A stretch of DNA of 31,176 nucleotides from a virus: positions 1 to 31,176 of the IMG/VR virus record IMGVR_UViG_3300035688_000047; one strand, 5' to 3'. Of the stretch, positions 377 to 29,889 are shown piece after piece (position 1 is the first letter of the stretch; every line of letters starts with the position of its first letter). The notes under the pieces were generated by a model. That model saw only the letters and a list, made by a program, of their open reading frames with translations. It did no database searches and was not told the DNA's origin. The position numbers and the translations under genes were made by a program.

Positions 377-415
377 ACGGACTTCTTCGACAGGGTAGAT
401 CGTGTTCTAGGGGTC

Positions 416-8448: not shown

Positions 8449-10518
8449 ATGACGCCTCGGTATAACTCAGAGGACGAGCAGTGGCACTGGTGGAGTGACG
8501 ATACGGGCTGGGGTGCCGTTCTCACCGACGCCGAGAAGGCTGACGCGCAGGCCAAGGGCCAGATACCGCCTGAGACTGCGGGGCAGGGGGATTTTGTCTC
8601 GAAGATTCTTGCCAACCTCACGGGTACTGAGACCTGGCGTAAGAAGAATCCCGACAAGGCGGGTGCCCTCGACCGCTGGAACAACGCTCTGCCCGAAGGG
8701 GCGAAGCGGCTGAGTGACTGGCAGGGGGAGCAATGTGAGCAGTACCTAGCGATTCCTGGTCTCACCTGGGAGCAAGCCCTGAACCTGGGTTCTGCCTACT
8801 TCGGGGGCGCTCCCAATGCCGCCTCCCCCGAATCTGCCGCCGCGATAGCTACCTCCAAGACGCTCAAGCCGGACGAGATGCAACACGAGATCGACCGGAT
8901 GCTGGCGGCTGCGGGGAAGGCTCCTGCGGGAGCGGCGGTAGCGACCACGACGCCACCGCAGGCCCTGACACCTGAGCAGCAGAAATATTGGGATCAGGCC
9001 ATTCGTGTTGCCCAAGAGAAGGGGCTACCCGATCCTGGGGCATTCGCCCGCCTGCTTCTTTGGGAGTCGCGCCTGAACCCGGCGATTGTGAACGAGAAAT
9101 CTGGTGCTGCGGGTATTGCCCAGTTCATGCCGGGTACCGCAGCGTCCTACGGTATCGATCCGCTGAATCCCGATGAGGCCATCCCTGCCGCCGCTCAACT
9201 CCTCCTTGACAACCGCGCGGCGAAGGGCATCGAGGACTGGCGCGCTGCTTATGCCGCCTACTTCTACGGCGCGGGCGGTATCGTCGGGCTTGGCCCTAAC
9301 TGGGAACAGAACATGGACCCAGACTACCGTGGGGAACTCAACTTCGTCATGGGCGGGACAGGCGGCGGCGGTGCTGCCCCAGGTGCCGCTGGCACGGCTG
9401 GCCTGGGTTACGCTGGTGCACCCTACGCAGGGGCACCTGCCCGCCGTACCCTCATGCCTGACGAGGAGAACGACTACACCCTCAACTACGCCCCTCGTGG
9501 TGTCTCGCGGGCTGCTTATGTCACTGCGAAAGACACGGGACGCAATCCTCTGGATGTCCAGAACCAGATCAACTTCACCGAACTCAATCAGGCCCTGGAA
9601 AGCAAGTGGATCACTGCTGACGAGTTCAACTTCGCTCTGGCCTATGGCCTGTCTCTAGGCGACATCCGCCAGATGCAGACTATGGGCATCAGTCAAGAGG
9701 AAGCCGCACCAGGACTTGTACGGGGGTTGACCATTTCGGACCTAGGTGCCGCAAGACTCCTAGACGTGCCCGTTACCGACTACATCTGGGCACGTTCGCG
9801 GGGTCTCACTGACGCAGACATTCGAGACGCCGTTCTTTCAGGCCAGAGTGTCGCCGAGAAGGTGGCTCAGGTTAAGACTACGGCGGCGCAGGGCCAGGCC
9901 CAGGCCGAGTTCGAGGACATCTGGGCGAAGCGCACAGCGGGCATATCAGAGGGCATCCTGAACGTCCCTGGCGTGACGCCCGCCCTGACCCGTGAGGGAG
10001 CGCGTGCCCAGACCGAGTACGTGCGGCGTCGCACCACCGAACTCGCTACGGCGGCACTTGAACAACCCGTTCCTGGTGCCGCCGCGAAGCCCGAACCCTT
10101 GCCTAGCGAGACTGGTATACCGTCCACGGAGGAATTGCTCACTAGGGTTGCCCGTGGCGGCGTGGTGCCGCTCTTCGTAGAGGGGCGGGAGCCACTGCCG
10201 GGTGGGTTCCGCCCCAGTGAGAGAGCCGTTGCCCGTACTGGTCCTGGTGGTCCCGCGCAGGTCGCAGGTTTCGAGTGGGCGGGTAAGCCGGGCGGCATGT
10301 ATGGCTTCAATCCACTGGGTGACTGGTTCGCCCAGCAACAGATGAAGGCAGCGTTCGGTCAACAGACCCAGGAGCAGCAGGCGAAGGCTTTGGAAGGGGA
10401 AAAGTACGCCCAAGCCTACATCGGCACACTAGGACCGCTCACGCCGAAGACAGAACCGTTGCCTGGGGAAGAACCCAAGAAGAAGAAAGAGAAACTAGGT
10501 CTGGCTGCTATAAGTTGA
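8449..10518 (+). CDS. virion protein with lytic transglycosylase (SLT) domain
   Basis: This 689-residue protein probably cuts peptidoglycan during DNA entry. A Glyco-hydro-23-like SLT domain spans about residues 176-285. It has the catalytic Glu in LLLWESRLNP (E206), then SGAAGIAQFMPGTAASYGI, then a PDEAIPAAAQLLLDN helix. The rest is Ala/Gly/Pro-rich or helical, and the C terminus is lysine-rich (EPKKKKEK). ATG 8449 has a G-rich site (AGGGGG) upstream. It lies between the ejection-like protein and the scaffold gene, so it is more likely a structural or ejected component than the lysis enzyme, which is encoded at 28181. Its TGA overlaps the -35 box of the promoter that follows. Confidence 0.82.
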   Translation: MTPRYNSEDEQWHWWSDDTGWGAVLTDAEKADAQAKGQIPPETAGQGDFVSKILANLTGTETWRKKNPDKAGALDRWNNALPEGAKRLSDWQGEQCEQYLAIPGLTWEQALNLGSAYFGGAPNAASPESAAAIATSKTLKPDEMQHEIDRMLAAAGKAPAGAAVATTTPPQALTPEQQKYWDQAIRVAQEKGLPDPGAFARLLLWESRLNPAIVNEKSGAAGIAQFMPGTAASYGIDPLNPDEAIPAAAQLLLDNRAAKGIEDWRAAYAAYFYGAGGIVGLGPNWEQNMDPDYRGELNFVMGGTGGGGAAPGAAGTAGLGYAGAPYAGAPARRTLMPDEENDYTLNYAPRGVSRAAYVTAKDTGRNPLDVQNQINFTELNQALESKWITADEFNFALAYGLSLGDIRQMQTMGISQEEAAPGLVRGLTISDLGAARLLDVPVTDYIWARSRGLTDADIRDAVLSGQSVAEKVAQVKTTAAQGQAQAEFEDIWAKRTAGISEGILNVPGVTPALTREGARAQTEYVRRRTTELATAALEQPVPGAAAKPEPLPSETGIPSTEELLTRVARGGVVPLFVEGREPLPGGFRPSERAVARTGPGGPAQVAGFEWAGKPGGMYGFNPLGDWFAQQQMKAAFGQQTQEQQAKALEGEKYAQAYIGTLGPLTPKTEPLPGEEPKKKKEKLGLAAIS

Positions 10519-10543
10519 CAGCTTAACTACTTCGCATTATATT
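10515..10543 (+). promoter_or_regulatory. sigma70-type promoter upstream of scaffold/capsid genes
   Basis: TTGACA (10515-10520) and TATATT (10538-10543) are separated by exactly 17 bp. The site lies in a locally AT-rich stretch of an otherwise GC-rich genome. The -35 box overlaps the stop codon of the transglycosylase gene. Transcription would begin near 10550, right at the base of the hairpin that follows. It would give the scaffold and major capsid genes their own strong promoter. This is sequence evidence only. Confidence 0.7.
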
Positions 10544-10550
10544 CGGATTG

Positions 10551-10596
10551 AAAGAGGCCACCGCAAGCCCTTCGGGGCAGGTGGCCTCTTTTGTTT
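10551..10596 (+). terminator. strong hairpin with U-rich tail (terminator or 5' leader hairpin)
   Basis: AAAGAGGCCACC (10551-10562) pairs perfectly with GGTGGCCTCTTT (10580-10591), a 12-bp stem. Inside it a second GCCC-TTCG-GGGC hairpin forms with a stable UUCG-type loop. The 3' arm runs into TTTTGTTT, so it qualifies as an intrinsic terminator for genes ending at 10518. It starts at the predicted transcription start of the promoter just upstream. It could therefore instead cap the 5' end of the scaffold/capsid mRNA as a stabilising or attenuating hairpin. Confidence 0.75.
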
Positions 10597-10692
10597 CAGG
10601 CATCGCACCGAACCGCTGGGACTGAGGAAGTCGCGGCGGGCCTGGGGTCGGAAGACGCCAGCGTAGGGACGGGATGCTGTTTGGAGGGCAAA

Positions 10693-11370
10693 GTGGACAA
10701 CGAAACAACTGACAACCCTGAGAACGTGGAGAAGAAGGAAGACGAACCTGAAGTGGTCTCCGCTGAGGAGCACCGCAAGATGCAGGCGACGCTCAACCAG
10801 AAGTTCGACGGGCTCACGAAGCAGTTGGAACGCGCACAGGCAGCGCGGGAAGAGGCTGAGGGTCGAGTCGCAGACCTGGATGCCCGATTCAACGCGCTAC
10901 AGGCGGAACTTCAGGATAGTTCAGCGGATGGCGAAGTCAATCCGGCCACGTTGAAGGCGCTCCGCAAGGAGCACGCTGAGGCGATGACACGACTTGACCA
11001 AGCCCGCCGCTTTGGATGGACGCAGTACGCGAAAGCCGAGGCTACTGGTCTTGCCCTGGAGTTCGGCCTTAGTACCGAGGACCGCGACCGGATCGGGGCC
11101 GAGATCGGCCCAGTGTCCTCTCAGAAGGAACTCGAACTGGCGGTACGGGAAATCCGCCTGCGCCTGAAGGAAGAGCAGGCTGAAACTGCCAAGGAAAAGG
11201 TAGCACCGAAGAAGCCCGAAGTGGACGCGGGTAAACCCACGGCCACGAAACGCGGTCTTCTGGACGAGTTGCGTGCGATTGACATGTCCACTCCCGAAGG
11301 TAGAGAGGAGTTCAAGAAGAAGGAAAGCGATCTCCGGCGACGGGTCGCTGCCTCTTCGGGAGGAGCATAA
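10693..11370 (+). CDS. scaffold-like capsid assembly protein
   Basis: A 225-residue, highly charged, helical protein lies directly before the major capsid gene, the classic scaffold position. Residues about 24-80 form a heptad-rich coiled coil (LNQKFDGLTKQLERAQ, DLDARFNALQAEL). Further helices follow, and then a basic C-terminal region (EEFKKKESDLRRRVAAS) of the sort that contacts coat protein. I chose GTG 10693 because GGAGG lies at 10683-10687. The frame extends further upstream, but that part is not protein-like and overlaps the terminator hairpin. Scaffolds are poorly conserved, so the call rests on position and composition. Confidence 0.78.
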   Translation: MDNETTDNPENVEKKEDEPEVVSAEEHRKMQATLNQKFDGLTKQLERAQAAREEAEGRVADLDARFNALQAELQDSSADGEVNPATLKALRKEHAEAMTRLDQARRFGWTQYAKAEATGLALEFGLSTEDRDRIGAEIGPVSSQKELELAVREIRLRLKEEQAETAKEKVAPKKPEVDAGKPTATKRGLLDELRAIDMSTPEGREEFKKKESDLRRRVAASSGGA

Positions 11371-11373
11371 CAA

Positions 11374-12354
11374 GTGACTGAACTTTACGCGACTGCTGGG
11401 TTCACGGAGGAAGCGCGCATCTTCTATGTGATGCAGCTTCTCGCCAGGGCGCAGCCGTACCTGAAGCACGCGGGCTGGGGCGTGCAGCGGTCTATCCCCC
11501 GCAACCAGGGCATCGTAGCGAACATGCGCCGATTGGAGCAAGTTCCTGGTAACGTCTCGTGGATTGCCAATGAGGGTACACCTCCGACAGCCACGAACGT
11601 CACCTGGAGTTCCGTGGCGATCACGGCGCGGCAGTACGGTGCCTTCGACTTCATCAGCGACGTGGCCCAGAGCCAGTCGATTGATAACGTAGTGGCTGAG
11701 ATGAGCGATATGTTCGCCGGTCAGCGGGCGCGGACTATCGACTTCCTGGCCCGCGACATCATGGTGGCTGGCACCAACGTCACATACCGCACCGGCACGG
11801 CAGCGACCGCTATCAGTACGGGTTCCGTGATGAACGCGGCTACGCTGCTGGGTGGCGTAGCCTCCTTGAAGAAGAGGGGGGCTCCTGGGCACCCGAAGGC
11901 GGGCGGCCGGTTCCCGTGCATCACGCACCCCGACGTGTACGTTGACATGCTCTTGGACAGCAACATCAGTGCTGCCCTCCAGTATGCCCTGCCTCGCGGT
12001 GGGGACAACCCGCTCTTCACGGGCGGCTCGTTCGACTTTGGTGGTGCTCGCATTATCGAGGCAAGCAACGCGAGGGTACGACCCTCTGGCGGTCTGTCGG
12101 TGAACATCGCCGTCTACGTCACTCAGCTTTTGGGTGATGGCTACTACGGCGAAGTCACCCTGGCCGAACTGGGGGACGACATCATCGTGAAGCCTGTAGG
12201 TTCGGCTGGCGCAGACGACCCGCTCAACCAGTACGGCACGGTCGGCTGGAAGACGAGCTATGCTGCGGCCATCCTGAACGGGAACTTTGGTCAGCGCCTT
12301 GAGACGGCCTCGACCAAGAACGACACGACGATAGTGGTTCACCCGACCACGTAA
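11374..12354 (+). CDS. major capsid protein, N4-gp56 family
   Basis: This 326-residue HK97-fold coat protein forms the capsid shell. Family-typical features are the N-terminal LLARAQPYLKHAGWGVQRSIP, the E-loop region with WIANEGTPPTATNVTW, and AITARQYGAFDFISDVAQ. The C-terminal segment ADDPLNQYGTVGWKTSYAA is highly characteristic of the N4-gp56 family. The start is GTG 11374, preceded by GGGAGGAGCATAAC, which gives a strong Shine-Dalgarno site. It lies 3 nt after the scaffold stop. A large hairpin begins at its stop codon. Confidence 0.92.
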   Translation: MTELYATAGFTEEARIFYVMQLLARAQPYLKHAGWGVQRSIPRNQGIVANMRRLEQVPGNVSWIANEGTPPTATNVTWSSVAITARQYGAFDFISDVAQSQSIDNVVAEMSDMFAGQRARTIDFLARDIMVAGTNVTYRTGTAATAISTGSVMNAATLLGGVASLKKRGAPGHPKAGGRFPCITHPDVYVDMLLDSNISAALQYALPRGGDNPLFTGGSFDFGGARIIEASNARVRPSGGLSVNIAVYVTQLLGDGYYGEVTLAELGDDIIVKPVGSAGADDPLNQYGTVGWKTSYAAAILNGNFGQRLETASTKNDTTIVVHPTT

Positions 12355-12411
12355 ACCTGTGTCGGCAGGGGAGGGCCGAGAGGGTCTCGGCCCTCCCCGC
12401 TGACACAGGTT
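12354..12411 (+). terminator. large two-part hairpin after the capsid gene
   Basis: The outer stem AACCTGTGTC (12354-12363) pairs perfectly with GACACAGGTT (12402-12411). A small internal loop separates it from a perfect 14-bp inner stem, GGGGAGGGCCGAGA (12368-12381) with TCTCGGCCCTCCCC (12385-12398), closed by GGG. In total 24 bp pair. No U-tract follows (the sequence continues TAGAAAGGAAGG), so simple intrinsic termination is doubtful. A partial terminator, an mRNA 3'-end stabiliser or a processing site would each fit the need for high capsid expression. Confidence 0.75.
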
Positions 12412-12424
12412 AGAAAGGAAGGTC

Positions 12425-13066
12425 ATGGCTCATAAGGGCGAGAAGGGGCCGTACAAAAAGGGTGAGATACCGTCAGGTTTGCGGCGCTATCAGGAGGAGC
12501 GGCGTAGGCGGAAAGAGGAGGCAGCGCAACTCAAGGAAGAGGCCCAACAGCCCGAAGTGGCCGAGGCCCTAGCCTCGACCTTACCGGCAGACATTGGGGC
12601 GGTCTTCCTGGAGATTCAGCGGGCTGTGTCTACCAAGGATGCTCAGGAAGCCGTTGATGCGCTGGCGAAGGCGATGGCCCGTCTGCCCGCTAGCGCGGTC
12701 GCCGACCTCATGGCGACACCCAGTTACCAAGCGATTATCGACAAGGCGGCCCTCTCCCGTGTCGGCACAAAGCCGGGCGACCCCATCCTTGACGAGAAGG
12801 GCCGCGTCATTGGTACCGTCCCCTGGCGGCATGAAGACTTCTTCGAGGAAGGCGAGGAGTGGAAGGAGTTTATGGGGGAGGAAAACCTCGTCTTCTACAT
12901 CAACGACGTGGAGTGGTCCGTCGCGGCGAACAAGATGTGCAAGTTGCCGCCATCGGTCTATCACTACTACGTGGAGAACAGGATGGAGAGAAAAAGGGCC
13001 GAGACTGGCGACGATGTGTTCGACTGGCTGAACCGTACCACCGGCGGCCACGCTCGGCGAACGTAG
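12425..13066 (+). CDS. hypothetical protein downstream of capsid, 213 aa
   Basis: ATG 12425 follows the strong site AAAGGAAGG just after the capsid hairpin. The 213-residue product starts with a basic GEKGPYKKGEIP segment. A charged Arg/Glu/Gln coiled-coil-like helix follows (RRYQEERRRRKEEAAQLKEE), then an Ala-rich helical part. The C-terminal part is acidic and aromatic (EEGEEWKEFMGEEN, SVYHYYVENRMERKR). I do not recognise the family. Position after the coat gene suggests a head-associated protein, but it could equally belong to the modification island that follows. Confidence 0.72.
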   Translation: MAHKGEKGPYKKGEIPSGLRRYQEERRRRKEEAAQLKEEAQQPEVAEALASTLPADIGAVFLEIQRAVSTKDAQEAVDALAKAMARLPASAVADLMATPSYQAIIDKAALSRVGTKPGDPILDEKGRVIGTVPWRHEDFFEEGEEWKEFMGEENLVFYINDVEWSVAANKMCKLPPSVYHYYVENRMERKRAETGDDVFDWLNRTTGGHARRT

Positions 13067-13074
13067 GGGGCTTC

Positions 13075-16050
13075 ATGCTCTCCCTAACAATGGTGGTGAG
13101 AAACTGTGCGACGACACTGCGGCAGTGTCTAAGCGCGGTCTCTCCCTACATGGACGAGATCATCATCGTCCTGGGTGGCGAATCCTCAGACGATACTGAG
13201 GCCGTGGCCCGCGAGTTCACAGAGAAGGTCTATCCCTTCGAGTGGATTGACGACTTCGCGGCGGCCCGCAATTACGCCCTCTCCAAAGTTACCGAACCCT
13301 ACTGGTTCTGGCTAGACGGCGACGACATAGCCGTGACCCAGCCTCATGTTCTTCCCGATGTCGTCAGGTGGATGGAGGAGAACGGCATAAGCTGCGTCTG
13401 GTTCCCCTACGTCTACCAGATGGACGAACGCGGCACCCCAACCCAGATTCAGGTCCGTGAGCGCATTATGAAGACGGCGGACGGCTGGTACTGGGTGAAC
13501 CGGATTCACGAGTGCTGCGCCTGTGACAAGCCAGGTGTCAAACTCCACGTCGAAGAGGGCATCAGGGTCATTCACGCCAACTACTCCAACGCACCGGTAG
13601 ACCTGGAGAAGGCGGGACGGAACATCCCCATCATCAAGAAGGCCATCGAGGACGAGCCAGGCAAGATGCGCCACGTCCTGGCCCTGGCCCATGCCGAGTT
13701 CGGCAGTGAACGCTATGCCGACGCGGTAGACCACTACATCCAGTATTTCTACAACCCTGAGAGCAAGATCGAGCAGTGGTGGGCGGCCTGCCAGGTGGCG
13801 CGTATCTGCCTTATCACCCAGGACTTCCGCAAGGCGCGGGGCTGGGCGCTTGCCGCGCTCGACGCTGACGGGCGCTACCGCGACCCCTACTGCCTCATGG
13901 CGCATATCTGCTGGTGGGGCGAACAGAACGGGGATGAGGCCATCGCCTGGGCACAGTCCAGCATCGGCAAAGAGGAGGCACCGCTGGTAGTCTGCCGGAC
14001 ACCCCGCGAGTACACCCTGAACCTCTGGGATGTCATGCACAGGGTCTATGCTCAGAAGGGCGACTACGAGAAGGCCCTGAAGATCGCGGGGCAGGCGTAT
14101 GAACTCGAACCTACGGACGATTGGAGCAAGTTCGTCCGCCTCTACTCTGAGGCGATTCAGGCCGAGGCCAGCATAGCATCGGCCAAGCAACTTGCCGATC
14201 ACCTCACGCGGCGGGGCGATACACTGCGCGCCCGATGGCTCCTGGAGGGCTACCTGCCTGCCAACATCCGAGATCAGAAGGAAATAGTTGAGGCCCGTAC
14301 CCTCTTGCAGAAGATCACCCAACACGCCTATAACCCCGACCTCTACCGCGCCTTCTATGACGACTCGAATGAGTGGCACGAGGTCGTGGGAACGGCAATC
14401 GACCCCTACCGCTGGGACTGGGTTTTGAATCGGCTAGGGAAGGCGGGCGTCAAGACTGTTCTGGACGTGGGCTGCGCCAATGGCGGTCCTGCGATGGAAC
14501 TGGCGCGCCATGGCTACAAGGTAACGGGCATCGACATTCACGGTCGGAACGTTGAGCGGGCGCAGAAAAAAGCCGAGGAAGAAGGGTTGGGCTGCACGTT
14601 CCTGGCCTGCGACCTGGAGGAGTTTCACACCCGCTGCCGAAAGGATGGGAACTTCGAGGTGTTCGATGCCGTCATCATGGCCGAACTCATCGAACACCTG
14701 CCGCCCCACCTTGTCGGCCACTACCTGCGGCGGGCCGACGACTTGGGCAAGCGCGTTCTGATCACCACGCCCTATCCGCTCGTGGGAGACTGGCCCGGCA
14801 TAGGCGAGATCGGCCCGACCGTGCCTGTCCCAGAGACGCCCCGTGAGCACATCTTGGAGTTCACCTACGACCAGTTGGTAGAACTGGCCTTTGACGAGTA
14901 CCGCCATCCAGTCGAACTCCACACTCTGACACAGCCCTGGGCCGAGGCGGGTGATACCAGGCAGCGCATTTGGGTCATGGAGTATGACCACGAGACCGTC
15001 AATGACCACCCCGTAGTCTTTTTCGTTGGCCCTGGCCCTGAGTTCTGGGACCCCGACTCGCCGAACGCTGGCGGACTCGGTGGCAGCGAGACAGCGGTTA
15101 TCCGCATGGCCCAGGAGTTCGCCAAGCGCGGGCACCGAGTAGTTGTCTACGCCGAGGCGGACGGCACCTACGACGGCGTTCTCTACCGCAACTACAAGCA
15201 CTTCGATCCCACGCAACACTTCTGGTTGCTGGTCATCAGCCGTCAGCCAGGGATGCTTGACCACAAGTACAACGCCGAGCACGTCTGGCTCTGGTGCCAC
15301 GACATCCAGTACGGCAAGCAGGAGCACCTGGACAATGCCGACAAGATTCTTGTCCTGAGCGAGTGGCATAAGAGCGAGTGGCAGCGAACTTATCGGAATG
15401 GGTCGGGGCCGACGATTACTGCCGATGGCGTCGTGCCGCCTGAAGGCCCGCTGACCGAACCTCAGCGCCATCGCTTCATCTACGCTTCGAGCCCCGACCG
15501 TGGCCTAGATGTTCTCCTAGAGTGGTGGCCTGCTATCCGCAAGATGTGGTCAGGCGCCGAGCTCCACATCTTCTACGGCTGGCAGAACCTCGTCGTCATG
15601 TCGGAGCGATTGCCCCACCTACGGACCTTCAAGATGAAGGTTGAGGCCCTTCTGGATCAGGACGGCGTGTTCTGGCACGGGCGGATAGGACAACCTGAAC
15701 TCTACAAGGAGTTCGCCAAGTCCCAATTCTGGCTCTATCCAAGTATCTGCCCTGATGGTGGCGACTGGTATGAGACCTACAACATTGTCGCACTAGAGGC
15801 GCAAGCAAACGGCTGCATTCCCGTTACTAGGCCAGTCGGGGCCATCCCAGAAAGGATGGTTGACCCGAGGTGCCTGGTGGATTCGCGTGATGTGCAGAAG
15901 TTCTTAGAGAGGTTGCGTTGGTGGGATGGCCTCTCTAAGCGCGAACGGGATCGGCGAAGATGGCGAATGGCCGAGAACGCTAGGTCGTGTACCTGGGAGA
16001 AGGTTTGTGATCAATGGCTCGAAATGGTCCGAAGCCCAGTTCTGGTTTGA
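13075..16050 (+). CDS. multidomain GT2 - TPR - methyltransferase - GT-B glycosyltransferase
   Basis: The 991-residue product fuses at least three enzymes. Residues 1-200 are a GT-A (family 2) glycosyltransferase with an opening LSLTMVVRN strand and a metal-binding DGDD at 81-84. Residues about 200-450 are helical TPR-like repeats (ALAHAEFGSERYADAVDHYI, YAQKGDYEKALKIAGQAYEL). Residues about 455-600 are a class I SAM methyltransferase with VLDVGCANGG near 462-471 and AELIEHLPPH. Residues about 640-991 are a GT-B (GT4-like) transferase with GGLGGSETAVIRMAQEFAKR and a C-terminal EX7E pair (E900, E908). ATG 13075 follows a GGGGG tract. I expect it to build and methylate a short glycan; the acceptor is unknown. 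Confidence 0.85.
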   Translation: MLSLTMVVRNCATTLRQCLSAVSPYMDEIIIVLGGESSDDTEAVAREFTEKVYPFEWIDDFAAARNYALSKVTEPYWFWLDGDDIAVTQPHVLPDVVRWMEENGISCVWFPYVYQMDERGTPTQIQVRERIMKTADGWYWVNRIHECCACDKPGVKLHVEEGIRVIHANYSNAPVDLEKAGRNIPIIKKAIEDEPGKMRHVLALAHAEFGSERYADAVDHYIQYFYNPESKIEQWWAACQVARICLITQDFRKARGWALAALDADGRYRDPYCLMAHICWWGEQNGDEAIAWAQSSIGKEEAPLVVCRTPREYTLNLWDVMHRVYAQKGDYEKALKIAGQAYELEPTDDWSKFVRLYSEAIQAEASIASAKQLADHLTRRGDTLRARWLLEGYLPANIRDQKEIVEARTLLQKITQHAYNPDLYRAFYDDSNEWHEVVGTAIDPYRWDWVLNRLGKAGVKTVLDVGCANGGPAMELARHGYKVTGIDIHGRNVERAQKKAEEEGLGCTFLACDLEEFHTRCRKDGNFEVFDAVIMAELIEHLPPHLVGHYLRRADDLGKRVLITTPYPLVGDWPGIGEIGPTVPVPETPREHILEFTYDQLVELAFDEYRHPVELHTLTQPWAEAGDTRQRIWVMEYDHETVNDHPVVFFVGPGPEFWDPDSPNAGGLGGSETAVIRMAQEFAKRGHRVVVYAEADGTYDGVLYRNYKHFDPTQHFWLLVISRQPGMLDHKYNAEHVWLWCHDIQYGKQEHLDNADKILVLSEWHKSEWQRTYRNGSGPTITADGVVPPEGPLTEPQRHRFIYASSPDRGLDVLLEWWPAIRKMWSGAELHIFYGWQNLVVMSERLPHLRTFKMKVEALLDQDGVFWHGRIGQPELYKEFAKSQFWLYPSICPDGGDWYETYNIVALEAQANGCIPVTRPVGAIPERMVDPRCLVDSRDVQKFLERLRWWDGLSKRERDRRRWRMAENARSCTWEKVCDQWLEMVRSPVLV

Positions 16051-16736
16051 TCTCGATCCTTTGTCCGACGCGGCACCGGCCAAAGCGGGTATTGGTGATG
16101 ATGGAGAGTGCGTTGGTGATGGCGGCCCATCCCGAACTCGTGGAGTTCATCTTCTACGTGGACAATGACGACTTCAGCCTGTTCACCATGCGCCTGCCCG
16201 GCCAGTACAAGATTCGCGTCGGGCCACGCCAGAATGGACCCCAAAACTGGAATCGCGCCTATGGGTGGAGCAAGGGCGAGATCGTCATGATGGGTGCCGA
16301 TGACATCGTGTTTCGCACTCAGGGTTGGGATGACCGAGTGCGGACCGAGTTCGACAAGTATCCCGATGGCATCGTCATGGTCTACGCGGAAGACCGGCCC
16401 TTCAAAGTTGGCTGGCCGCAGGCGACTCACCCCTTCCTGACTCGTCGGTGGGTTGATGTCCTCGGCTACTTTGCTGCGCCCTACTTCAATGTCTACTGGG
16501 CCGACCAGTGGACGCAGGAGTTGGCCGACCGCATACAGCGCAAGGTCTGGCTAGAGGACGTATTCATCGAGCATGTGCATTTCCTGACGGGGCGGGCGGG
16601 CGTAGATACGACTTACGCCGAAGCCGTCGAACGTCAGGATGATGGCTCAGACGGTAGGACTTGGGATGCGACAGCCCTGAAGCGGATTCAGGAGGCCGAC
16701 AAACTGAGGCAGGCGATTGAGAGTTTTGCTGGTTAG
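16014..16736 (+). CDS. GT-A fold glycosyltransferase, 240 aa
   Basis: ATG 16014 lies inside the 3' end of the previous gene (37-bp overlap) and follows GGGAGAAGG. The product opens with the nucleotide-binding strand LISILCPTRHRPKR. It has a DND-type motif YVDNDDFS (D50-D53) and a second acidic motif MMGADDIVFR (D96-D97), a plausible metal/donor site. The C-terminal half has aromatic acceptor-side segments (NVYWADQWTQELADR). It is shorter than many GT2 enzymes but has the full core. It likely adds one sugar in the same pathway as the large fusion upstream; donor and acceptor are not readable from the sequence. Confidence 0.75.
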   Translation: MARNGPKPSSGLISILCPTRHRPKRVLVMMESALVMAAHPELVEFIFYVDNDDFSLFTMRLPGQYKIRVGPRQNGPQNWNRAYGWSKGEIVMMGADDIVFRTQGWDDRVRTEFDKYPDGIVMVYAEDRPFKVGWPQATHPFLTRRWVDVLGYFAAPYFNVYWADQWTQELADRIQRKVWLEDVFIEHVHFLTGRAGVDTTYAEAVERQDDGSDGRTWDATALKRIQEADKLRQAIESFAG

Positions 16737-17949
16737 CCCCAGGACGCCCCGGTTCTGGGAGCCGAGGATGTTCCCCATGCTCGGCATCCTCTACGTTGGG
16801 GCTGCCTGCCGGCAGGCAGGCGCAGAGGTGTTGCTCTGGGATATGAACTACTCCGCCGATCCGCCGGTTGAGGAGTGCGATATCCTCATGGTGACGGCGA
16901 ATACCCCGACATGGCCCACGGCCTGCGAGGTTGCGACGCGCATACGGGCAGGGCTGAAGGTGGTGGGTGGCCCGCATCCGACCGCGACGGGGGAACGCGG
17001 GCCGTTCGACCTTGGCTGTAAAGGGCCAGGGGAGCGGGCGGCGATGTGGGCAGTTTCCTACATGCTTGGCAACCCTATGTCTCCGACTGCACCTGCCCCA
17101 GAAGTTTGGCCCGCCTATGACCTCTGGCCCGAACTGGGTCAGGTGAGCGCGTGTGCAGTGGAGGGTGAGGAACCCGAACCTGGGTGTAGCATCATCACCT
17201 CTCGCGGCTGCCCCTACGCCTGCAACTTCTGTGCGAGCGAGGTCATGTGGCACCGGCGGGTACGGTTCCGCGAAGTGGAAGACGTACTGGCCGAGGCCAA
17301 GTATTTGCACGGCAGTTTCGGCATCCGGCAACTGAGCATTAAAGACGATGTTGCCAACCTAAAGAAACCGCGCTTTGCGGAACTCTGTCGGGGGTTCTCT
17401 GACCTGGGCATGAAGTGGCGGATGCACACCCGAACCGATCATGTCAGCCTGGACGAGTTTCGCATGATGAAGGACTGCGGCTGCGTCGAGGTCGGCTTCG
17501 GTGTTGAGAGCGGCAGTCAGCGGATGCTTAACCTTATGGGGAAGGCCAACACGGTGGAGAATAACGAACGGGCGATTGTGTGGGCCAATGAGGTCGGCCT
17601 GCGGCCCCGTATCTACCTCATCGTGGGGTTCCCTGGCGAGACCTGGGAGAGCGTCCACCAGACCCTTGACTTCGTGCGTCGAACGAGGCCGCACCGTGCC
17701 TTAGTCAATAACTTTGTTCCCTATCCAGGTTGCCCTGTCTGGAATAACCCTGCCGCCTTTGGCTGCACTATCGACAAGAGCAACCTTGAGACTTACTGGC
17801 AGGTAGGGTTGGAAGAGGATGAGGGCTTCCAGGCCGCCTTCGATTCCATGACGAGAGAGGAGCTGCGAGAGGCCCGGCGTGTGTTGCAGGAAGCCTGCGA
17901 ACAATTAACGGGCTCGCCGGATCGCCGCAAGGAGGCGGCGCTGGTATGA
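16717..17949 (+). CDS. B12-binding-type radical SAM protein
   Basis: Residues 1-125 resemble the cobalamin-binding Rossmann domain of class B radical SAM enzymes (RVLLVSPRTP start, AACRQAGAEVLLWDMN, VVGGPHPTA). Residues about 155-330 are a radical SAM barrel with the 4Fe-4S motif CPYACNFC (C165, C169, C172). The barrel continues with VGFGVESGSQRMLNLMGK and IYLIVGFPGETWES. Such enzymes methylate unactivated carbon or remodel rings, using radical chemistry. The start is TTG 16717, because the first beta strand begins there and no ATG or GTG is available; it overlaps the previous gene by 20 bp. Context suggests sugar or glycan modification. The substrate is unknown. Confidence 0.85.
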   Translation: MRVLLVSPRTPRFWEPRMFPMLGILYVGAACRQAGAEVLLWDMNYSADPPVEECDILMVTANTPTWPTACEVATRIRAGLKVVGGPHPTATGERGPFDLGCKGPGERAAMWAVSYMLGNPMSPTAPAPEVWPAYDLWPELGQVSACAVEGEEPEPGCSIITSRGCPYACNFCASEVMWHRRVRFREVEDVLAEAKYLHGSFGIRQLSIKDDVANLKKPRFAELCRGFSDLGMKWRMHTRTDHVSLDEFRMMKDCGCVEVGFGVESGSQRMLNLMGKANTVENNERAIVWANEVGLRPRIYLIVGFPGETWESVHQTLDFVRRTRPHRALVNNFVPYPGCPVWNNPAAFGCTIDKSNLETYWQVGLEEDEGFQAAFDSMTREELREARRVLQEACEQLTGSPDRRKEAALV

Positions 17950-19205
17950 GGCCGCCGTATGTTAGGACAGCCATGAAGATCGCCATGATCGGCCTGGGCA
18001 AACTGGGGCTCCCCGTGCTCCTGACGATGGAGAGCAAGGGGCACGAGGTCATGGGCTGCGAGATTTCAGCGGAGGTTCGCAAGAATATCATAGCCCGCTA
18101 CTACCCCAATCACGAGCCTGGGGCGCAGGAACTCCTAGCGCAGAGCAAGTTATGGCTGGGGACGATCTATGAGGCCGTCCAGTTCGCCGACATCATCTTC
18201 GTGGCCGTCCAGACACCCCACGAGCCGCAATATGAGGGCTGTACGCCCTTACCCGATACACGGGCCGACTTTGACTATTCATTCCTCAAGGAAGCGGTGA
18301 GACACATCGCCGAATCCGCAGAGCGGCAACGCAAGGACACAGTGTTAGTCATCATCTCTACCGTCCTCCCAGGCACGATACGGCGAGAGATCATGCCACT
18401 ACTCAACAAGTACATCGACCTGGCCTACAACCCCTCCTTCATAGCGATGGGTGAGACCATCCGTAACTTCCGTCGGCCAGAGTTCACGCTTATCGGCACG
18501 GAGTCTGAGCCACTAACCCTCCTGTTGCGGAAGTTCTACCACACAATCCACCACGAGGCGGTTGTCTCTATGGGTATCGAGGAGGCCGAACTCACGAAGG
18601 TCGCCTACAACACCTTTGTCACGTCCAAGATTGTCTTCGCCAATACCCTCATGGAAATCTGCGACCGCATTGGGGCTGACGTGGACGTGGTGACAGAGGC
18701 TTTAGGTAAGGCCACAGATAGAGTTATATCCCCCAAATATCTGCGGGGTGGCATGGGGGACGGAGGTGGCTGCCATCCCCGCGACAACATCGCACTCTCA
18801 TGGCTGGCACGGAAGTTGGGTCTATCGCATGACCTGTTCGGGTCACTCATGGAGGCCAGGGAGAGACAGGCGCGATGGCTGGCAGAGATCGTCAAGGAGG
18901 AGGCGAAGAAGGCCGAACTGCCCATCGTCATCTTGGGCAAGGCATTCAAGGCTGAGACCAACATCACGGTTGGCAGTCCTGCGTTCCTGCTTGCCAACTT
19001 CCTCGGATGGCCCACGATGTACGACCCCTACGTTGATGGCGCCCCCGAACTATTGGAGCCATGCGTCTTCGTGATAGCCACGAATCACCCTGTATTTCAG
19101 GAGCAGGACTTCCCCTATCCTGTGGGATCAGTGGTGATCGACCCCTGGGGATATATCTTAGACCGGCCAGGTGTGCGGGTACGGCGCATAGGGAGAACAA
19201 GATGA
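17946..19205 (+). CDS. UDP-glucose/GDP-mannose dehydrogenase family protein
   Basis: This family oxidises a nucleotide sugar twice with NAD to the uronic acid. Visible features are the N-terminal NAD-binding motif GLGKLGLP and AYNPSFIAMGETIRNF. The central helix has LTKVAYNTFVTSKIVFANTL, with the conserved lysines. The catalytic cysteine is in GDGGGCHPRDNIAL (C276). The C-terminal domain contains ILGKAFKAETNITVGSP. The 419-residue length is normal. ATG 17946 overlaps the previous stop (ATGA) and has AAGGAGG at 17929-17935; ATG 17973 with AGGA is an alternative that removes nine residues. It presumably supplies a uronic-acid donor to the glycosyltransferases. Its stop overlaps the next start. 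Confidence 0.88.
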   Translation: MRPPYVRTAMKIAMIGLGKLGLPVLLTMESKGHEVMGCEISAEVRKNIIARYYPNHEPGAQELLAQSKLWLGTIYEAVQFADIIFVAVQTPHEPQYEGCTPLPDTRADFDYSFLKEAVRHIAESAERQRKDTVLVIISTVLPGTIRREIMPLLNKYIDLAYNPSFIAMGETIRNFRRPEFTLIGTESEPLTLLLRKFYHTIHHEAVVSMGIEEAELTKVAYNTFVTSKIVFANTLMEICDRIGADVDVVTEALGKATDRVISPKYLRGGMGDGGGCHPRDNIALSWLARKLGLSHDLFGSLMEARERQARWLAEIVKEEAKKAELPIVILGKAFKAETNITVGSPAFLLANFLGWPTMYDPYVDGAPELLEPCVFVIATNHPVFQEQDFPYPVGSVVIDPWGYILDRPGVRVRRIGRTR

Positions 19206-20056
19206 GTGTTCGCTACGGTGCATTAAAGGCCGACCTTCTTTCCCTCATGGGCTGCCTAGAGCGGGAGGGTACTTGCAGTACTGGCGGTGGTGCTGGCCTG
19301 CTGGTCGATGCCGGTGTACTCACCGATCAAGACGACTTCTTCATCGGCAAGCGAATCTACATCCACAACGGCACCTCACAGGGCGACGAGAGAGAGATCA
19401 CGGATTCTGATTCCAGCGATGCGAGCGTGACGGTGGCACCCAACTGGACTACCACCCTCACTAGCAAGATAGACGCAGAATACTTCATCTATGACACCTT
19501 CCGCATAGCCACTGTCAACCGCGCATTGATAACAGCCTTGAGGCTCCTGCGGCGGCATACCCTGCTCCCGATGGTTGACGACACGAGCCTTACGCTTGGT
19601 GATCCGACCCTGGCGGCGACCTATGAACTTACCGTGCCCACTAACTTTGCGGCCGTGCGGGAAATCTGGCGCGAGGATGGTTCCCTGGCTGGTCTCTTCA
19701 CGATGCACATCCCTGGCCCTGGTGACACAGACTGCCCTTGGTGGTATCCCGTGCGGAGCTCCACGCGAAAGATACGGCTGGACAAGGCTATCGCCGACCA
19801 CCACGGCTGGATCGAGAAGGACAAGAAGCTACGGATCGTCGGACAGCAGTACCAGGCCGAACCGACGGATGATGATTCGACCTTTGACATCAACACCGGC
19901 CCACTACTTGTCCTTGCCGCAGCCCTGCTGCGACTCCAACTCCTGAGTCGCGCGGAGGACGTTGCGGCTACCAGAACTGCCCTCGTCAAGGCCCTGGAGA
20001 ACGTGAGCCGTGGGCAAGCCTTCATCCAGGGCAGCGTGATCTTCGAGGAGGCGTGA
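19202..20056 (+). CDS. putative head-tail adaptor protein
   Basis: ATG 19202 overlaps the dehydrogenase stop (ATGA) with AGGGAG upstream. The 284-residue product has a beta-rich N-terminal insert (LLVDAGVLTDQDDFFIGKRI, SQGDEREITDSDSSDASVTV). A helical region follows (IATVNRALITALRLLRRHTL), then a long C-terminal helix (RAEDVAATRTALVKALENVS). The N-terminal helix, middle strands and terminal helices, with position before a nozzle-sized gene, fit the adaptor that joins portal to tail in podoviruses (P22 gp4 or T7 gp11-like role). I infer the role from layout rather than from a diagnostic motif. Confidence 0.55.
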   Translation: MSVRYGALKADLLSLMGCLEREGTCSTGGGAGLLVDAGVLTDQDDFFIGKRIYIHNGTSQGDEREITDSDSSDASVTVAPNWTTTLTSKIDAEYFIYDTFRIATVNRALITALRLLRRHTLLPMVDDTSLTLGDPTLAATYELTVPTNFAAVREIWREDGSLAGLFTMHIPGPGDTDCPWWYPVRSSTRKIRLDKAIADHHGWIEKDKKLRIVGQQYQAEPTDDDSTFDINTGPLLVLAAALLRLQLLSRAEDVAATRTALVKALENVSRGQAFIQGSVIFEEA

Positions 20057-20057
20057 C

Positions 20058-22292
20058 GTGCCCGCATACAGGCAAGTCCTCTCGCTCAACGGCATAGACT
20101 ACCCGCTGGTCTCATTCCAGATAGACCGTATCCGCCCTCTCCGCGTCCAGCAACTCGCCACCGGTGCCCTACGCTGGGACGAGCACATGGGGGCCTACGA
20201 GTATGTAATCAACGACTTCAGCGGCCCCCTGGGCCAGATGCGGATCGAGATGGAGCAGGCCAAGCAGGGGCACCGCATTTACAGCGTTAACTCCCCGACC
20301 TGGGACGGAAGCATGGGCTATCTGACAGGTGTGCCGCAGTTCACCAACCGCATCACTCCCGCACCCGCCATCGCCACCACTAGGGCCATCGTTCCCACTA
20401 GCGTCTGTGTTTCCTCCGACATCGAAGACATAGGCAGCGACCCCCGCCACTATGTGGGCGTGGGGAATGAGGTCTGGCGCTCCGTGAAAGGGGAGCCTAA
20501 GTTTCAGGATTCGGGAACGGCCAACGCCGCCGTGAGCACCAGCAATACGACCCTCACTGACACCCGTGAAGCCTGGGCAACAAACGAGTGGGTGGGATTC
20601 GAGGTCACATGCGGCGGCAAGACCATGACCGTAACCGGCAACACGGCCACTGTGCTAACCGGCGCAAGTTGGAGCGGGGGTGGCAACCCCGGCAACGGGC
20701 TTGCCTGGGAGATGCACGACAGCGTGGTGAGCATCCCAAGCGCGACCCAGATCACGGGGTTCTGCGAAGCGAGCTACACAAAGGGCACCAGCGCCACCAT
20801 GATCCGGCGTATCTGGGTAACTGGTGCCTCTGCGACAGGCGACCACCTTATGAAATACTTGGGCGCGGGTGCCTTTAACGACGATGGAGCCTGGCATACA
20901 GCCCAAAGATACCCGGTGACGGACATCTACGCCGAGAGCACCTGCGTGGCGCGGTGCTGGAAAAATCCAGGGGGCACAACGACAGGCTACCAGGATATTG
21001 TCTGGATCGCGCACCGAGACGGGACCATTGACCTGATAGCTCCCGCCTTTGGTATCGGCGGCGCGTACTACACGCCTCAAGTTTTCATGGGTAGCGGTCG
21101 AGTTCAGTTCCTCGCTCAACGCTTCAACGATATATGGGGCCAGGGCGTGTTCTTCATCACGGGTAGCGAACTGATCAACCTTTACTTTACCGAAGGCGGC
21201 CTGCCGAAATCTCGTCCTATTCCCCCCCTCCCGCCCCTGTTCTGCGGCACCATGTACCAGAACATGCCCACCGTTAGCGATGGTGGTTTGCAGATACATC
21301 AGGTCATGGGTACTCAGACGCGGCGCCTGGACCTACCACCCAACCTGCTGTCCGAGTGCAACGTTCGTAACACTGCTCACTTCCGGGCGAGCATCCGCTT
21401 CCTGGCTTCATCGGGAGACCGCCTGCTGGCTGGCCTTCAGGTCACGGACGACACTTACTACAGCCTCATGCTGGCAGCCTACAACGATGCTATAGGCCAG
21501 TGGCGTATCCTCTGGGCTCACAACGGGGGCACGAGCGTTTCTGACTTCATGGGGACGTATCTAGGGGCAACGCACGCTCCGGCCAACCTTACGGGGGCAG
21601 ACAAACATCTGGTCATTGTCTACAAGGTAGGGACAAACACCCTGGTAGACACCATCCAGTTGCCGCGTGGCCTGGTTGGACAGACAGGGGCCGACGACGC
21701 CTTCAATCTCGCTTCATCTAGCAACTGGGGTCTTCCTGAGTTCGATGCGGGAGACCCCATGTTGGACGGAACGCTGTTTGGCTATCGCCTGCTTTTATAC
21801 GCGAGTCAGGCGACTACTCCATTCCTCGCTATCTTCGATGCGATGGACGGCGCGGCCTACAACGAGGTCGGCGCGAACATCGGACCGACCGTTGGCTGGA
21901 ACGCTGTCCAGAGGCTATTAGGCGATGGGCAGGGCGAGAGTTTCACGACATGCGCCGTGGTTCTCACCGTCCAAGCTAGTACAGACGGAACTCATTGTCC
22001 CGAAATCCACCGCTTCTCATACCTATTCCGCAAACGCGGGGATTGCGCCAGGGACTACACGTTTCAGATCGACGTGGAGGCCTGGCGCGCCAAAGGCCAG
22101 ACCTATGCCTCGCTCTGGTCGAACCTGACCACCGCTTACGAGGCGGAACCGATGGTCGCCATGAGCGTCAAGAGCGAGGGCGTGGCAACGCTACTCAGTT
22201 CTCGATATGTCTCCGTAGAGAACGTGGAGGCGGCACCAACAGACCCGCGCAAGCCGCGCGCCGTACGGGTTCTATGCAGGGAGATGCTGTAG
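20058..22292 (+). CDS. large beta-rich tail protein, nozzle-like candidate
   Basis: GTG 20058 lies one base after the previous stop, with GAGGAGG just upstream. The 744-residue product is rich in beta-forming, Gly/Thr/Ser/Trp segments and has no signal peptide or transmembrane segment. An inserted region near residues 150-235 (TANAAVSTSNTTLTDTREAW, GKTMTVTGNTATVLTG) looks like a small beta domain typical of virion proteins. Its size and its place after an adaptor-sized gene match a podovirus tail nozzle (T7 gp12-like role). No enzyme motif is visible. It could alternatively be a tail hub of another morphology. Confidence 0.55.
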   Translation: MPAYRQVLSLNGIDYPLVSFQIDRIRPLRVQQLATGALRWDEHMGAYEYVINDFSGPLGQMRIEMEQAKQGHRIYSVNSPTWDGSMGYLTGVPQFTNRITPAPAIATTRAIVPTSVCVSSDIEDIGSDPRHYVGVGNEVWRSVKGEPKFQDSGTANAAVSTSNTTLTDTREAWATNEWVGFEVTCGGKTMTVTGNTATVLTGASWSGGGNPGNGLAWEMHDSVVSIPSATQITGFCEASYTKGTSATMIRRIWVTGASATGDHLMKYLGAGAFNDDGAWHTAQRYPVTDIYAESTCVARCWKNPGGTTTGYQDIVWIAHRDGTIDLIAPAFGIGGAYYTPQVFMGSGRVQFLAQRFNDIWGQGVFFITGSELINLYFTEGGLPKSRPIPPLPPLFCGTMYQNMPTVSDGGLQIHQVMGTQTRRLDLPPNLLSECNVRNTAHFRASIRFLASSGDRLLAGLQVTDDTYYSLMLAAYNDAIGQWRILWAHNGGTSVSDFMGTYLGATHAPANLTGADKHLVIVYKVGTNTLVDTIQLPRGLVGQTGADDAFNLASSSNWGLPEFDAGDPMLDGTLFGYRLLLYASQATTPFLAIFDAMDGAAYNEVGANIGPTVGWNAVQRLLGDGQGESFTTCAVVLTVQASTDGTHCPEIHRFSYLFRKRGDCARDYTFQIDVEAWRAKGQTYASLWSNLTTAYEAEPMVAMSVKSEGVATLLSSRYVSVENVEAAPTDPRKPRAVRVLCREML

Positions 22293-22295
22293 ACC

Positions 22296-22763
22296 ATGAC
22301 TTCAGAAATTGAAGTGGCCTGGGCCGCTGGCTTCTTCGACGGGGAAGGTTGCGTTTCAGCGAAGCGTGCTGGTCGCCGGTACAACCTTATGATCGCCGTA
22401 ACCCAGATCGATCTGCGGCCACTACTTAAGATGCGCCGGTTGTTCGGCGGGTTTATATGTGCCCATCCAGCACGAAAGGAAGGTTGGGCGAAGTGGTATC
22501 AGTGGGTAGCCTCAGCTTGCCAAGCGGCACAGGCACTAAAGGCCATGCTGCCCTATCTGATGGTAAAGAGGGAGGTCGCCGAACTTGGTCTCGCACTTCA
22601 GAGAAGCAAGCGGTCTCCAGGTCACCACATAGCTCAGTGTGAGGCAGATCAACAGAGGTGGTATGCCGAGGCTATCAAAGCGCAGAACGCGCTGCGGCCT
22701 GACCAGGATGAGGCCGGTCTTCCCGCCAAACCCACCTCGTCGCAACTAAGGTTGGTAATTTAG
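22296..22763 (+). CDS. LAGLIDADG homing endonuclease, free-standing
   Basis: A 155-residue protein has the single helix motif AWAAGFFDGEGCVSAKRAG (residues 8-26), matching the LAGLIDADG core. The following strands and helices fit (NLMIAVTQID, LLKMRRLFGG). One motif copy implies it works as a homodimer. It would cut a specific site to spread its own gene. ATG 22296 lies 3 nt after the upstream stop, and its TAG directly abuts the next gene's ATG. It therefore sits cleanly between two structural genes without interrupting either, and there is no sign of an intron. Start context GGGAG is 11 nt upstream. Confidence 0.87.
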   Translation: MTSEIEVAWAAGFFDGEGCVSAKRAGRRYNLMIAVTQIDLRPLLKMRRLFGGFICAHPARKEGWAKWYQWVASACQAAQALKAMLPYLMVKREVAELGLALQRSKRSPGHHIAQCEADQQRWYAEAIKAQNALRPDQDEAGLPAKPTSSQLRLVI

Positions 22764-29626: not shown

Positions 29627-29887
29627 ATGGCCCTTGGCAGCATGATTGCCCATACCTACCATTCAGATATGCTACTGAACATGACGCAGGTCGCCAGCAA
29701 GATAGGGCGTTCGCAGCAGACCATCCGGCGCTGGGAGGCGAAGGGAACCTTTGGGTTCCCCGCCGCCGTCCGCTACGGTCCCCGGTGTGTGCGTCGGTGG
29801 CATGACGAGGAGATCAACCGCTGGCTTGAAGGACGCATAAACCCTCCGGGCACCCCGCCTGCGCCCTCTGCGGTTGCCAAGCGATAG
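29627..29887 (+). CDS. AlpA/MerR-like winged helix-turn-helix protein
   Basis: The product of up to 86 residues contains LLNMTQVASKIGRSQQTIRR (HTH, about residues 16-35), then WEAKGTFGFPAAVRYGPRCV and RRWHDEEINRWLEGR. That is the layout of AlpA-like regulators and excisionases: HTH, a wing with FPxxVRxGPRxVRW, then a final helix. It binds DNA and could act as a regulator or directionality factor; no integrase is visible here. The start is uncertain, because ATG 29627, 29642, 29669 and 29681 are in frame and none has a good ribosome-binding site. It is the first gene after the rightward promoter. Confidence 0.75.
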   Translation: MALGSMIAHTYHSDMLLNMTQVASKIGRSQQTIRRWEAKGTFGFPAAVRYGPRCVRRWHDEEINRWLEGRINPPGTPPAPSAVAKR

Positions 29888-29889
29888 GG

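Follow-up and report, generated by a model that had tools for sequence, protein, structure and literature searches.

A glycosyltransferase fusion gene linked to the capsid gene in podovirus-type phages, and a candidate virion-glycosylation island in one uncultured lineage

Introduction

Glycosyltransferases (GTs) encoded by phages are usually read as modifiers of DNA or of the host surface. Phage-encoded glycosylation of the virion itself is nonetheless already known from mycobacteriophages, with Che8, Corndog and Myrna as the examples given where the work is cited (Freeman 2023, via PMC12363180, PMC11256854 and PMC11652166). In Che8 the transferases act on virion proteins and their genes, gp108-110, lie side by side at the right end of the genome, away from the head genes even though the virion is glycosylated, so that gene position by itself is no proof of virion glycosylation. 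With regards to domain architecture, the closest described enzymes are the glycocin S-glycosyltransferases SunS and ThuS, which have a helical domain behind the GT2 domain, and GmaR, the Listeria flagellar glycosyltransferase and anti-repressor, in which a GT domain is followed by a TPR region (PMC3150276) and a C-terminal domain that binds MogR.

We here describe a stretch of 31,176 nucleotides, being positions 1 to 31,176 of the IMG/VR virus record IMGVR_UViG_3300035688_000047 and hereafter called the window, in which four sugar-related genes adjoin the capsid gene. Like gp108-110 they lie side by side, but in the Che8 stretch examined no dehydrogenase, radical SAM enzyme or methyltransferase is annotated alongside the transferases, whereas the island of the window has all three. 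The tested Che8 enzymes also appear unrelated to the GTs of the window, with no similarity detected by blastp or phmmer between gp108-110 and either these GTs or those of loci L013 and L006. A closer counterpart is found under other names: PHROG 13126 ('beta-1,4-glycosyltransferase') and the 'beta4glucosyltransferase' of ctKR88 (a Manatee Spring podovirus, MW202524) are GT2-TPR-GT4 fusions of the same kind, likewise occupying the slot that follows the capsid gene, but lacking the embedded methyltransferase of the window and accompanied by other accessory genes. We found no prior description of such a capsid-linked fusion in open-licence papers.

Results

Layout of the glycan island

The island (13075-19205) consists of four overlapping genes on the strand of the capsid gene, and its surroundings were as follows.

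10515-10543, +: promoter-like site TTGACA-N17-TATATT, 11 of 12 consensus matches, preceding the scaffold/capsid/glycan unit
10554-10597, +: strong hairpin with T-run directly 3' of the promoter-like site, a terminator- or attenuator-like leader
10591-11370, +: scaffold-like gene by position and coiled-coil composition; start uncertain, the listed TTG lying within the leader
11374-12354, +: major capsid protein; phrog_1357 (major head protein) 7.1e-33, Pfam Phage_capsid_4 4.2e-8
12425-13066, +: g213, 213 aa, no assigned function; sole gene separating the capsid gene from the fusion GT
13075-16050, +: fusion GT; 991 aa, ATG start, GT2-TPR-methyltransferase-GT4
16014-16736, +: GT-A-like glycosyltransferase; 240 aa, phrog_14945 'glycosyltransferase' 2e-33
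16717-17949, +: B12-binding radical SAM enzyme; 410 aa, TTG start, CxxxCxxC at residue 165
17946-19205, +: nucleotide-sugar (UDP-glucose/GDP-mannose type) 6-dehydrogenase; 419 aa
19202-20056, +: 284-aa gene downstream of the island; adaptor by position only
20058-22292, +: 744-aa gene, tail nozzle by position only

The sequence-only reading of this DNA had placed four adjacent sugar genes 3' of the capsid block, which the domain matches and the phrog_1357 assignment of the capsid gene confirmed. It had also described the island genes as overlapping each other and the gene that follows, and here the coordinates were exact: the fusion GT starts 8 nt after g213, and the successive overlaps are 37 nt (fusion and GT-A-like gene), 20 nt (GT-A-like and radical SAM gene), 4 nt (radical SAM and dehydrogenase gene, ATGA) and again 4 nt (dehydrogenase and following gene, ATGA at 19202). 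No terminator-like site was seen on the plus strand between 10588 and 22331, no membrane or hydrophobic segment above threshold was found in any island protein, and no known RNA family was found within the window.

In a sister contig (L002) all four island genes are colinear at 83-88% amino-acid identity, with dN/dS between the two of 0.07-0.18, which together exclude a chance arrangement of open reading frames; judged from these ratios, the four genes are under purifying selection. The corresponding value for g213 was 0.059. At the equivalent place L002 has TTGACG-N17-TATATT, and the leader hairpin of the window (MFE -32.8 kcal/mol, z -4.7) has a counterpart there of -30.1 kcal/mol (z -4.0). 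The scaffold-like gene gave no family match except a sub-threshold coiled-coil one.

What found no confirmation was the earlier adaptor label for the gene at 19202-20056, which matched nothing in Pfam or the PHROGs and gave an AlphaFold model with a pLDDT of 38. The nozzle assignment of 20058-22292 likewise found no Pfam or PHROG match, and hhalign comparison of both genes with the adaptors and nozzles of related loci, as profiles, and with Pagevirus Pony gave none.

Domain composition of the island enzymes

The fusion GT comprises a GT2 domain (residues ~1-170, Pfam 1.6e-14), a TPR/helical region (~173-420), a methyltransferase (~445-570, 4.7e-14) and a GT4 domain (~643-991, 2.4e-9). All residues invariant across 44 fusions are kept in it, including DxDD, the His of HE and the GT4 motifs. 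A GT2 domain with DxDD followed by a helical/TPR domain is the SunS/GmaR-like arrangement, and the closest solved structures to the N-terminal half were those of the protein or peptide GTs SunS, ThuS and GmaR: GmaR was best by sequence among solved-structure sequences (8e-19), and SunS (7msp) best by predicted fold (2.8 Å over 290 columns). Fold matches to OGT and SPINDLY had a high rmsd and by themselves count for nothing. Against the NCBIfam SunS family the fusion scored 49.8 bits (2.2e-13) where the equivalog cut-off is 350, so that it may work like SunS yet lies outside that equivalog. It shares the GT-to-TPR order of GmaR, but has a methyltransferase and GT4 domain where GmaR has its MogR-binding domain; the same two domains are additional as compared to SunS and ThuS, and a precursor peptide gene was not noticed. 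The rows of VIA-align cover the GT4 domain only and were rejected as evidence on the N-terminal half, where they speak neither for nor against other families. The wider GT2 family of SunS and GmaR also includes enzymes acting on saccharides. From sequence and modelled fold, the front half of the fusion resembles protein or peptide glycosyltransferases, a likeness that leaves the acceptor unfixed.

The GT-A-like protein had no Pfam match, and weak homologues of it are encoded 3' of the fusion in L017/L033 and in L085, and close to the fusion in L086. The radical SAM protein combines CxxxCxxC (Radical_SAM, 6e-24) with a B12-binding domain (1.1e-7, at 32.1 bits exactly at the Pfam cut-off), as B12-dependent radical SAM enzymes do. 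In the dehydrogenase the N-terminal and central UDPG_MGDP_dh domains were clear (7e-24 and 8.8e-22) and the C-terminal UDP-binding domain weak; the catalytic Cys of GGGCHPRD and the conserved Lys and Asn are kept, and the NCBIfam subfamily TIGR03026 was passed with 205.7 bits (cut-off 189.8). Its scores stayed below the equivalog cut-offs of AglM (169.5 versus 670) and TuaD (151.3 versus 700), so that the substrate is not fixed as UDP-glucose.

Linkage of the fusion gene to the capsid gene

Searching viral contigs with the fusion sequence alone, with no capsid criterion, gave 283 contigs having the GT2-TPR-GT4 fusion without the methyltransferase. The best 80 of these, together with 8 further loci, made up a linkage sample of 71 non-redundant groups. 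A major capsid gene was present together with the fusion in 69 of the 71 (capsid cluster phrog_1328, 2.5e-67), ending within 2 kb upstream of it in 64 groups; of genes drawn at random from the same stretches, 14% lie no more than 2 kb 3' of the capsid gene. Both genes were on the same strand in 68 of 68 cases, with exactly one gene between them in 51 of the 68, as in the window (capsid gene, g213, fusion). Divergence of the capsid protein and of the fusion went together (Mantel r 0.89; 0 of 2000 permutations) down to capsid identities as low as 20%. Genetic linkage of the fusion gene to the capsid gene holds over deep divergence; since the 71 groups share common ancestors, the linkage represents retention and not 69 independent events. 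Common capsid ancestry of the window and the L013 group was undetectable, the window capsid belonging to another family, one without detectable similarity to the other capsids.

Accessory gene content differed from locus to locus. Of 140 genes directly downstream of the fusion, 34 encode GT2 and 8 radical SAM proteins, besides methyltransferases, GT4 and sugar-nucleotide enzymes, and in related loci the methyltransferase embedded in the window fusion is a separate adjoining gene or is fused at the opposite end. In L013 the last GT of the island runs into the start of the gene after it, in the adaptor position, much as in the window. The sequence-only reading had asked of comparative genomics whether the island always travels with the capsid/adaptor set: the fusion gene does stay by the capsid gene in nearly all of the sampled groups, but apart from the window only L002 was found to have precisely these four genes. 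When the capsid, portal and dehydrogenase of the window were used as queries, nothing was found besides the sister contig and a single capsid relative at 42%, which ends just past its capsid gene.

Similar enzymes also occur in other settings. An unrelated large phage contig of 240 kb (L110, IMGVR_UViG_3300047499_000113) has within 12 kb a GT2-TPR-GT4 fusion, two more GT4 proteins, a B12 radical SAM enzyme and a UDP-glucose dehydrogenase; a 1567-aa collagen protein is nearby, and the 9 kb upstream contain no capsid gene of this cluster. In pelagiphage HTVC008M, homologues of the GT-A-like and dehydrogenase genes are found together outside a structural block. Among 18 bacterial or archaeal genome contigs with matches, four (L112, L124, L125 and L128) have the fusion with adjoining capsid and portal genes; a cellular origin of the fusion was set aside, most of the remaining contigs matching chiefly the GT4 part.

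A second fusion beside a collagen-like gene

Further downstream in the window is a second GT2-methyltransferase fusion, overlooked in the sequence-only reading, which has 4-nt overlaps both with a fibre gene upstream and with the next gene.

23760-24776, +: collagen-like fibre protein; 338 aa, Pfam Collagen 2.8e-10, tail-fibre PHROGs
24773-26002, +: second GT2-methyltransferase fusion; 409 aa, GT2 4.3e-13, Methyltransf_11 1.1e-7
25999-27270, +: virion-structural-like gene; 423 aa, phrog_37549 2.5e-7

A collagen fibre as the general acceptor was rejected, since a collagen-like open reading frame flanks the fusion in only one of the 71 groups.

Discussion

The same capsid-adjoining slot for the fusion gene across dozens of distant phages suggests that these phages sugar-coat their own particles. 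For the window, we favour the island being a cytosolic protein-glycosylation pathway, co-made with the head proteins and decorating a virion protein, with a probability of roughly 0.65. Decoration of the virion had been proposed before from the gene order, and it has since gained the capsid linkage, the protein-GT-like front half of the fusion, and the lack of membrane segments and terminator-like sites in the searches made here. In such a pathway, the dehydrogenase would form a uronic-acid donor by oxidising a nucleotide-hexose of the host, whereupon the GT2 domain of the fusion would attach the initial sugar to a phage protein held by the TPR/helical domain, as in SunS, ThuS and GmaR. The GT4 domain and the GT-A-like enzyme could then extend the glycan, its sugar being modified by the methyltransferase inside the fusion and by the B12 radical SAM enzyme, and the gene overlaps would couple enzyme supply to expression of the capsid module. 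The glycan would probably be received by a protein of the capsid, head fibre or tail, a further candidate being the collagen-like fibre, to which a GT2-methyltransferase of its own is coupled.

Phage GTs have established functions in serotype conversion and surface modification (PMC10202952, PMC12619734), and the island could instead serve a late change of LPS, capsule or another surface glycan, sparing progeny from binding to debris or blocking further phages. Dehydrogenases and sugar-nucleotide enzymes are part of surface-polysaccharide pathways too, but gtr-type cassettes have membrane-embedded flippase and GT partners, whereas no membrane protein, be it a flippase or a polyprenyl-phosphate GT, is encoded in the island; its core gene is tightly linked to the capsid gene and not to lysogeny or early genes, and the nearest solved structures are protein or peptide GTs. 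We consider this explanation unlikely.

Rather improbable, in our view, is that the acceptor is specifically a fibre or adhesin and not the capsid shell, the island glycosylating head or tail fibres and thereby tuning adsorption. The coupling of the second GT2-methyltransferase to the fibre gene in the window agrees with it, as do the long Ser/Thr-rich fibre-like proteins encoded downstream of the capsid gene in L015, L018 and L019 and inside the ctKR88 island, and the collagen protein near the L110 fusion. It fits poorly with just one small gene separating capsid and fusion in most loci, the window included, and with the scarcity of collagen-like genes beside the fusion.

Hypermodification of DNA, the transferases glycosylating modified bases and so shielding phage DNA from nucleases, is a known activity of phage GTs (Pyle 2024, as cited in PMC12619734), and the window, being a partial genome, leaves room for it. 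We regard it as very unlikely here, the fusion being linked to the capsid gene and not to replication genes; PF00303 (thymidylate synthase/hydroxymethylase), the family of the base-hydroxymethylating enzyme that accompanies the GT in T4-like DNA glucosylation, was absent from 18 fusion-carrying phages, whose records span 36-44 kb and include the ctKR88 genome in full, while a control was positive in 9 of 14 genomes, and the annotation of ctKR88 has no obvious base-modification gene. That the island is mobile cargo, a moron cassette at a permissive site having no virion function, would agree with how common accessory GT genes are in phages and with their variable content between loci, but is highly improbable given the strong purifying selection on the island genes, the co-inheritance of fusion and capsid, and the unchanged slot of the fusion over deep divergence.

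Extending the preferred reading, virion glycosylation, beyond the window, we suggest tentatively, and at somewhat less than even odds, that a widespread group of environmental podovirus-type phages has a dedicated protein-glycosylation system tied to the capsid gene, in which the GT2-TPR-GT4 core starts and extends a virion glycan, with the lineage of the window adding its own uronic-acid donor and its methyltransferase and B12 radical SAM tailoring, thus giving a glycan unlike those known. The retention of a GT beside the capsid gene while the capsids diverged suggests that virion decoration is widespread and ancient among uncultured podovirus-type phages, and the capsid-linked fusion provides a named gene with which this can be tested. 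If true, it would bear on the persistence, adsorption and recognition of phage particles, and would offer a source of cytosolic protein GTs and of radical SAM enzymes that tailor sugars.

Gene layout of the window

The window is a virus record of IMG/VR, linear and 31,176 bases long, and carries all of its main genes on the plus strand, in the following order.

5′ part, +: terminase large subunit, portal-position gene, 1476-aa gene, transglycosylase-domain protein
10591-11370, +: scaffold-like gene
11374-12354, +: major capsid protein
12425-13066, +: 213-aa gene
13075-16050, +: island protein 1, 991 aa, a fusion GT with GT2, TPR/helical, methyltransferase and GT4 parts
within 13075-19205, +: island protein 2, GT-A-like enzyme (PHROG 14945)
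within 13075-19205, +: island protein 3, radical SAM protein, B12-binding domain scoring at cut-off
ending at 19205, +: island protein 4, nucleotide-sugar dehydrogenase, assigned at subfamily level (equivalog profiles do not fix its substrate)
19202-20056, +: 284-aa gene
3′ part, +: 744-aa gene, fibre-type genes, lysis-type genes

The four island genes lay exactly where the sequence-only reading had placed them, and overlap one another and the next gene as it had described (by 37 nt, 20 nt, ATGA and ATGA); the first of them begins 8 nt after the 213-aa gene. The last of these overlaps is with the 284-aa gene, whose name 'adaptor' reflects only its position. The predicted model of the fusion had a mean pLDDT of 82, in which a GT-B fold was clear for the GT4 half (VIA-align best Z 29.5, 2.9 Å, 322 residues). 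Homing endonuclease-like genes of LAGLIDADG and HNH types were seen in or beside the structural block (22296-22763 and 29874-30557), and a second GT2-methyltransferase fusion (24773-26002) stands between two genes, one for a collagen-like fibre and one virion-structural-like, each of which it overlaps by 4 nt.

Linkage of the fusion to the capsid gene

Scanning viral contigs with the fusion's own sequence gave 283 matches, the best 80 of which were fetched and, together with the loci already in hand, formed 71 groups at 90% identity. Within this set a capsid gene was present in 69 of the 71 groups (phrog_1328, 2.5e-67); no capsid gene of that cluster was found in locus L039 or in the 240 kb phage contig IMGVR_UViG_3300047499_000113 (L110). 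Capsid gene and fusion were on the same strand in 68/68 groups, with exactly one gene of at least 90 aa between them in 51/68, and the capsid gene ended less than 2 kb upstream of the fusion in 64 groups and less than 1 kb in 58. Of genes picked at random from these stretches, 14% lay within 2 kb on the downstream side of the capsid gene. Upstream there was also a portal gene in 64 groups and a terminase in 56, and the fusion overlapped the following gene in 54/67. Pairwise divergences of capsid and fusion were correlated at 0.89 (63 groups; 0/2000 permutations), over capsid identities of 20 to 95%. As the 71 groups are related by descent, the linkage reflects long retention, not repeated insertion. 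The window's lineage is a separate case of the same slot, its capsid family not being detectably related to those of the other loci.

The closest annotated phage relative of the window's fusion was in podovirus ctKR88 (L006, MW202524), where the capsid gene is followed by one small gene and a GT2-TPR-GT4 protein. A scan with an alignment of fusions found locus L013, having capsid gene, small genes, fusion, two transferase/methyltransferase genes, GT-A, GT4 and adaptor-position gene in that order, with the last GT gene overlapped by the start of the next. All relatives of the L013 capsid with sufficient downstream sequence (L015, L016, L017, L018, L021 and L022) had the fusion; L019 and L020 were left out of this count since their contigs end too early. 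In phage ctf1B273 (L007), exceptionally, the fusion sits between terminase and portal. No annotated transferase was found in the post-capsid gap of the reference phages tf, HTVC106P, RHph_Y25, ctXG6705 and ctnlZ23, which have more distant capsids of the L013 group, or of Pagevirus Pony, so that this slot is occupied in some lineages only.

Several further features were seen at these loci. L015 (12346-15258), L018 (8864-12375), L019 (12212-14044) and L006 (8340-10136) each encode a long fibre-like protein rich in Ser and Thr, either between capsid gene and fusion or within the island; the N-termini of those from L015 and L019 are similar. The GT island that L007 has between terminase and portal includes a GroEL-like chaperonin gene (5640-7208), with the GT2 part on one side and an independent GT4 gene on the other; three other loci also carry genes like it close to the fusion. 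Four contigs with fusion and capsid/portal genes (L112, L124, L125 and L128) come from MAGs labelled Patescibacteria, bacterium, Bacteroidetes and Micrarchaeota; they probably belong to phages, either binned with those organisms or having them as hosts.

Accompanying genes

A Pfam search of 140 genes located one to three places 3′ of the fusion in the surveyed groups gave GT2 (34), methyltransferases (at least 14), radical SAM (8), GT4 (7), epimerase (6), GDP-mannose dehydratase (5) and SU10 adaptor (5). The methyltransferase found inside the window's fusion stands as a gene of its own beside the fusion in several loci, and L072, L075 and L081 have it joined to the opposite end; this links it to the same pathway. 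The order of B12 radical SAM gene and then dehydrogenase, close to the fusion, was seen in one other case, L110. That neighbourhood (297-5000 and 8950-20203) encodes a 1567-aa collagen protein followed by the GT2-TPR-GT4 fusion, a pair of GT4 proteins, a B12 radical SAM enzyme and a UDP-glucose dehydrogenase.

Selection and a putative leader

The sister contig L002, with terminase, portal and capsid 85-95% identical to those of the window, has the same island genes in the same order. Their dN/dS of 0.07-0.18 indicated purifying selection (capsid gene 0.07; scaffold 0.27). The 1476-aa gene (3783-8213; 3466-7449 in L002) is largely replaced, its first 285 residues alone aligning, at 37% identity. 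A promoter-like site ahead of the scaffold gene was kept in L002, with one base of the first hexamer changed and a variable spacer, and in both contigs a strong hairpin with a T-run directly follows it (site and hairpin at 10515-10597 of the window). As a transcript from this site would reach the terminator-like hairpin ahead of the head genes, one reading, unproven, is a leader needing antitermination; the arrangement resembles that of late promoters under such control. Past the hairpin, no further plus-strand terminator-like site was found in the window before 22331.

Candidate acceptor of the glycan

By sequence, the solved structures nearest to the N-terminal half of the fusion were GmaR (8e-19) and glycocin transferases, and by predicted fold SunS and ThuS (7msp: 2.8 Å, 290 columns, TM 0.73 by target). 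All of these are cytosolic enzymes with peptide or protein substrates. GmaR also has a GT domain followed by a TPR region (PMC3150276). The window's fusion has every residue that does not vary among 44 fusions, those of the two active-site motifs among them, and so both of its transferase halves look functional.

Virion glycosylation by phage is already known, being established in mycobacteriophages according to two reports (PMC12363180, PMC11652166). No description of the capsid-bound GT2-TPR-GT4 family was found in the open-licence literature searched. The mycobacteriophage virion GTs were unrelated to those of the island where compared (Che8). The Che8 genes are also not near head genes, and the GT-A and dehydrogenase homologues of HTVC008M lie away from a structural block; gene position alone therefore cannot settle the acceptor. 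Taking the place in the head module together with the lack of membrane segments in any of the four island proteins, and of the base-hydroxymethylating family in 18 relatives, a virion protein fits better as candidate acceptor than LPS or DNA. We consider it rather probable, at about 0.65, that the island decorates a virion protein.
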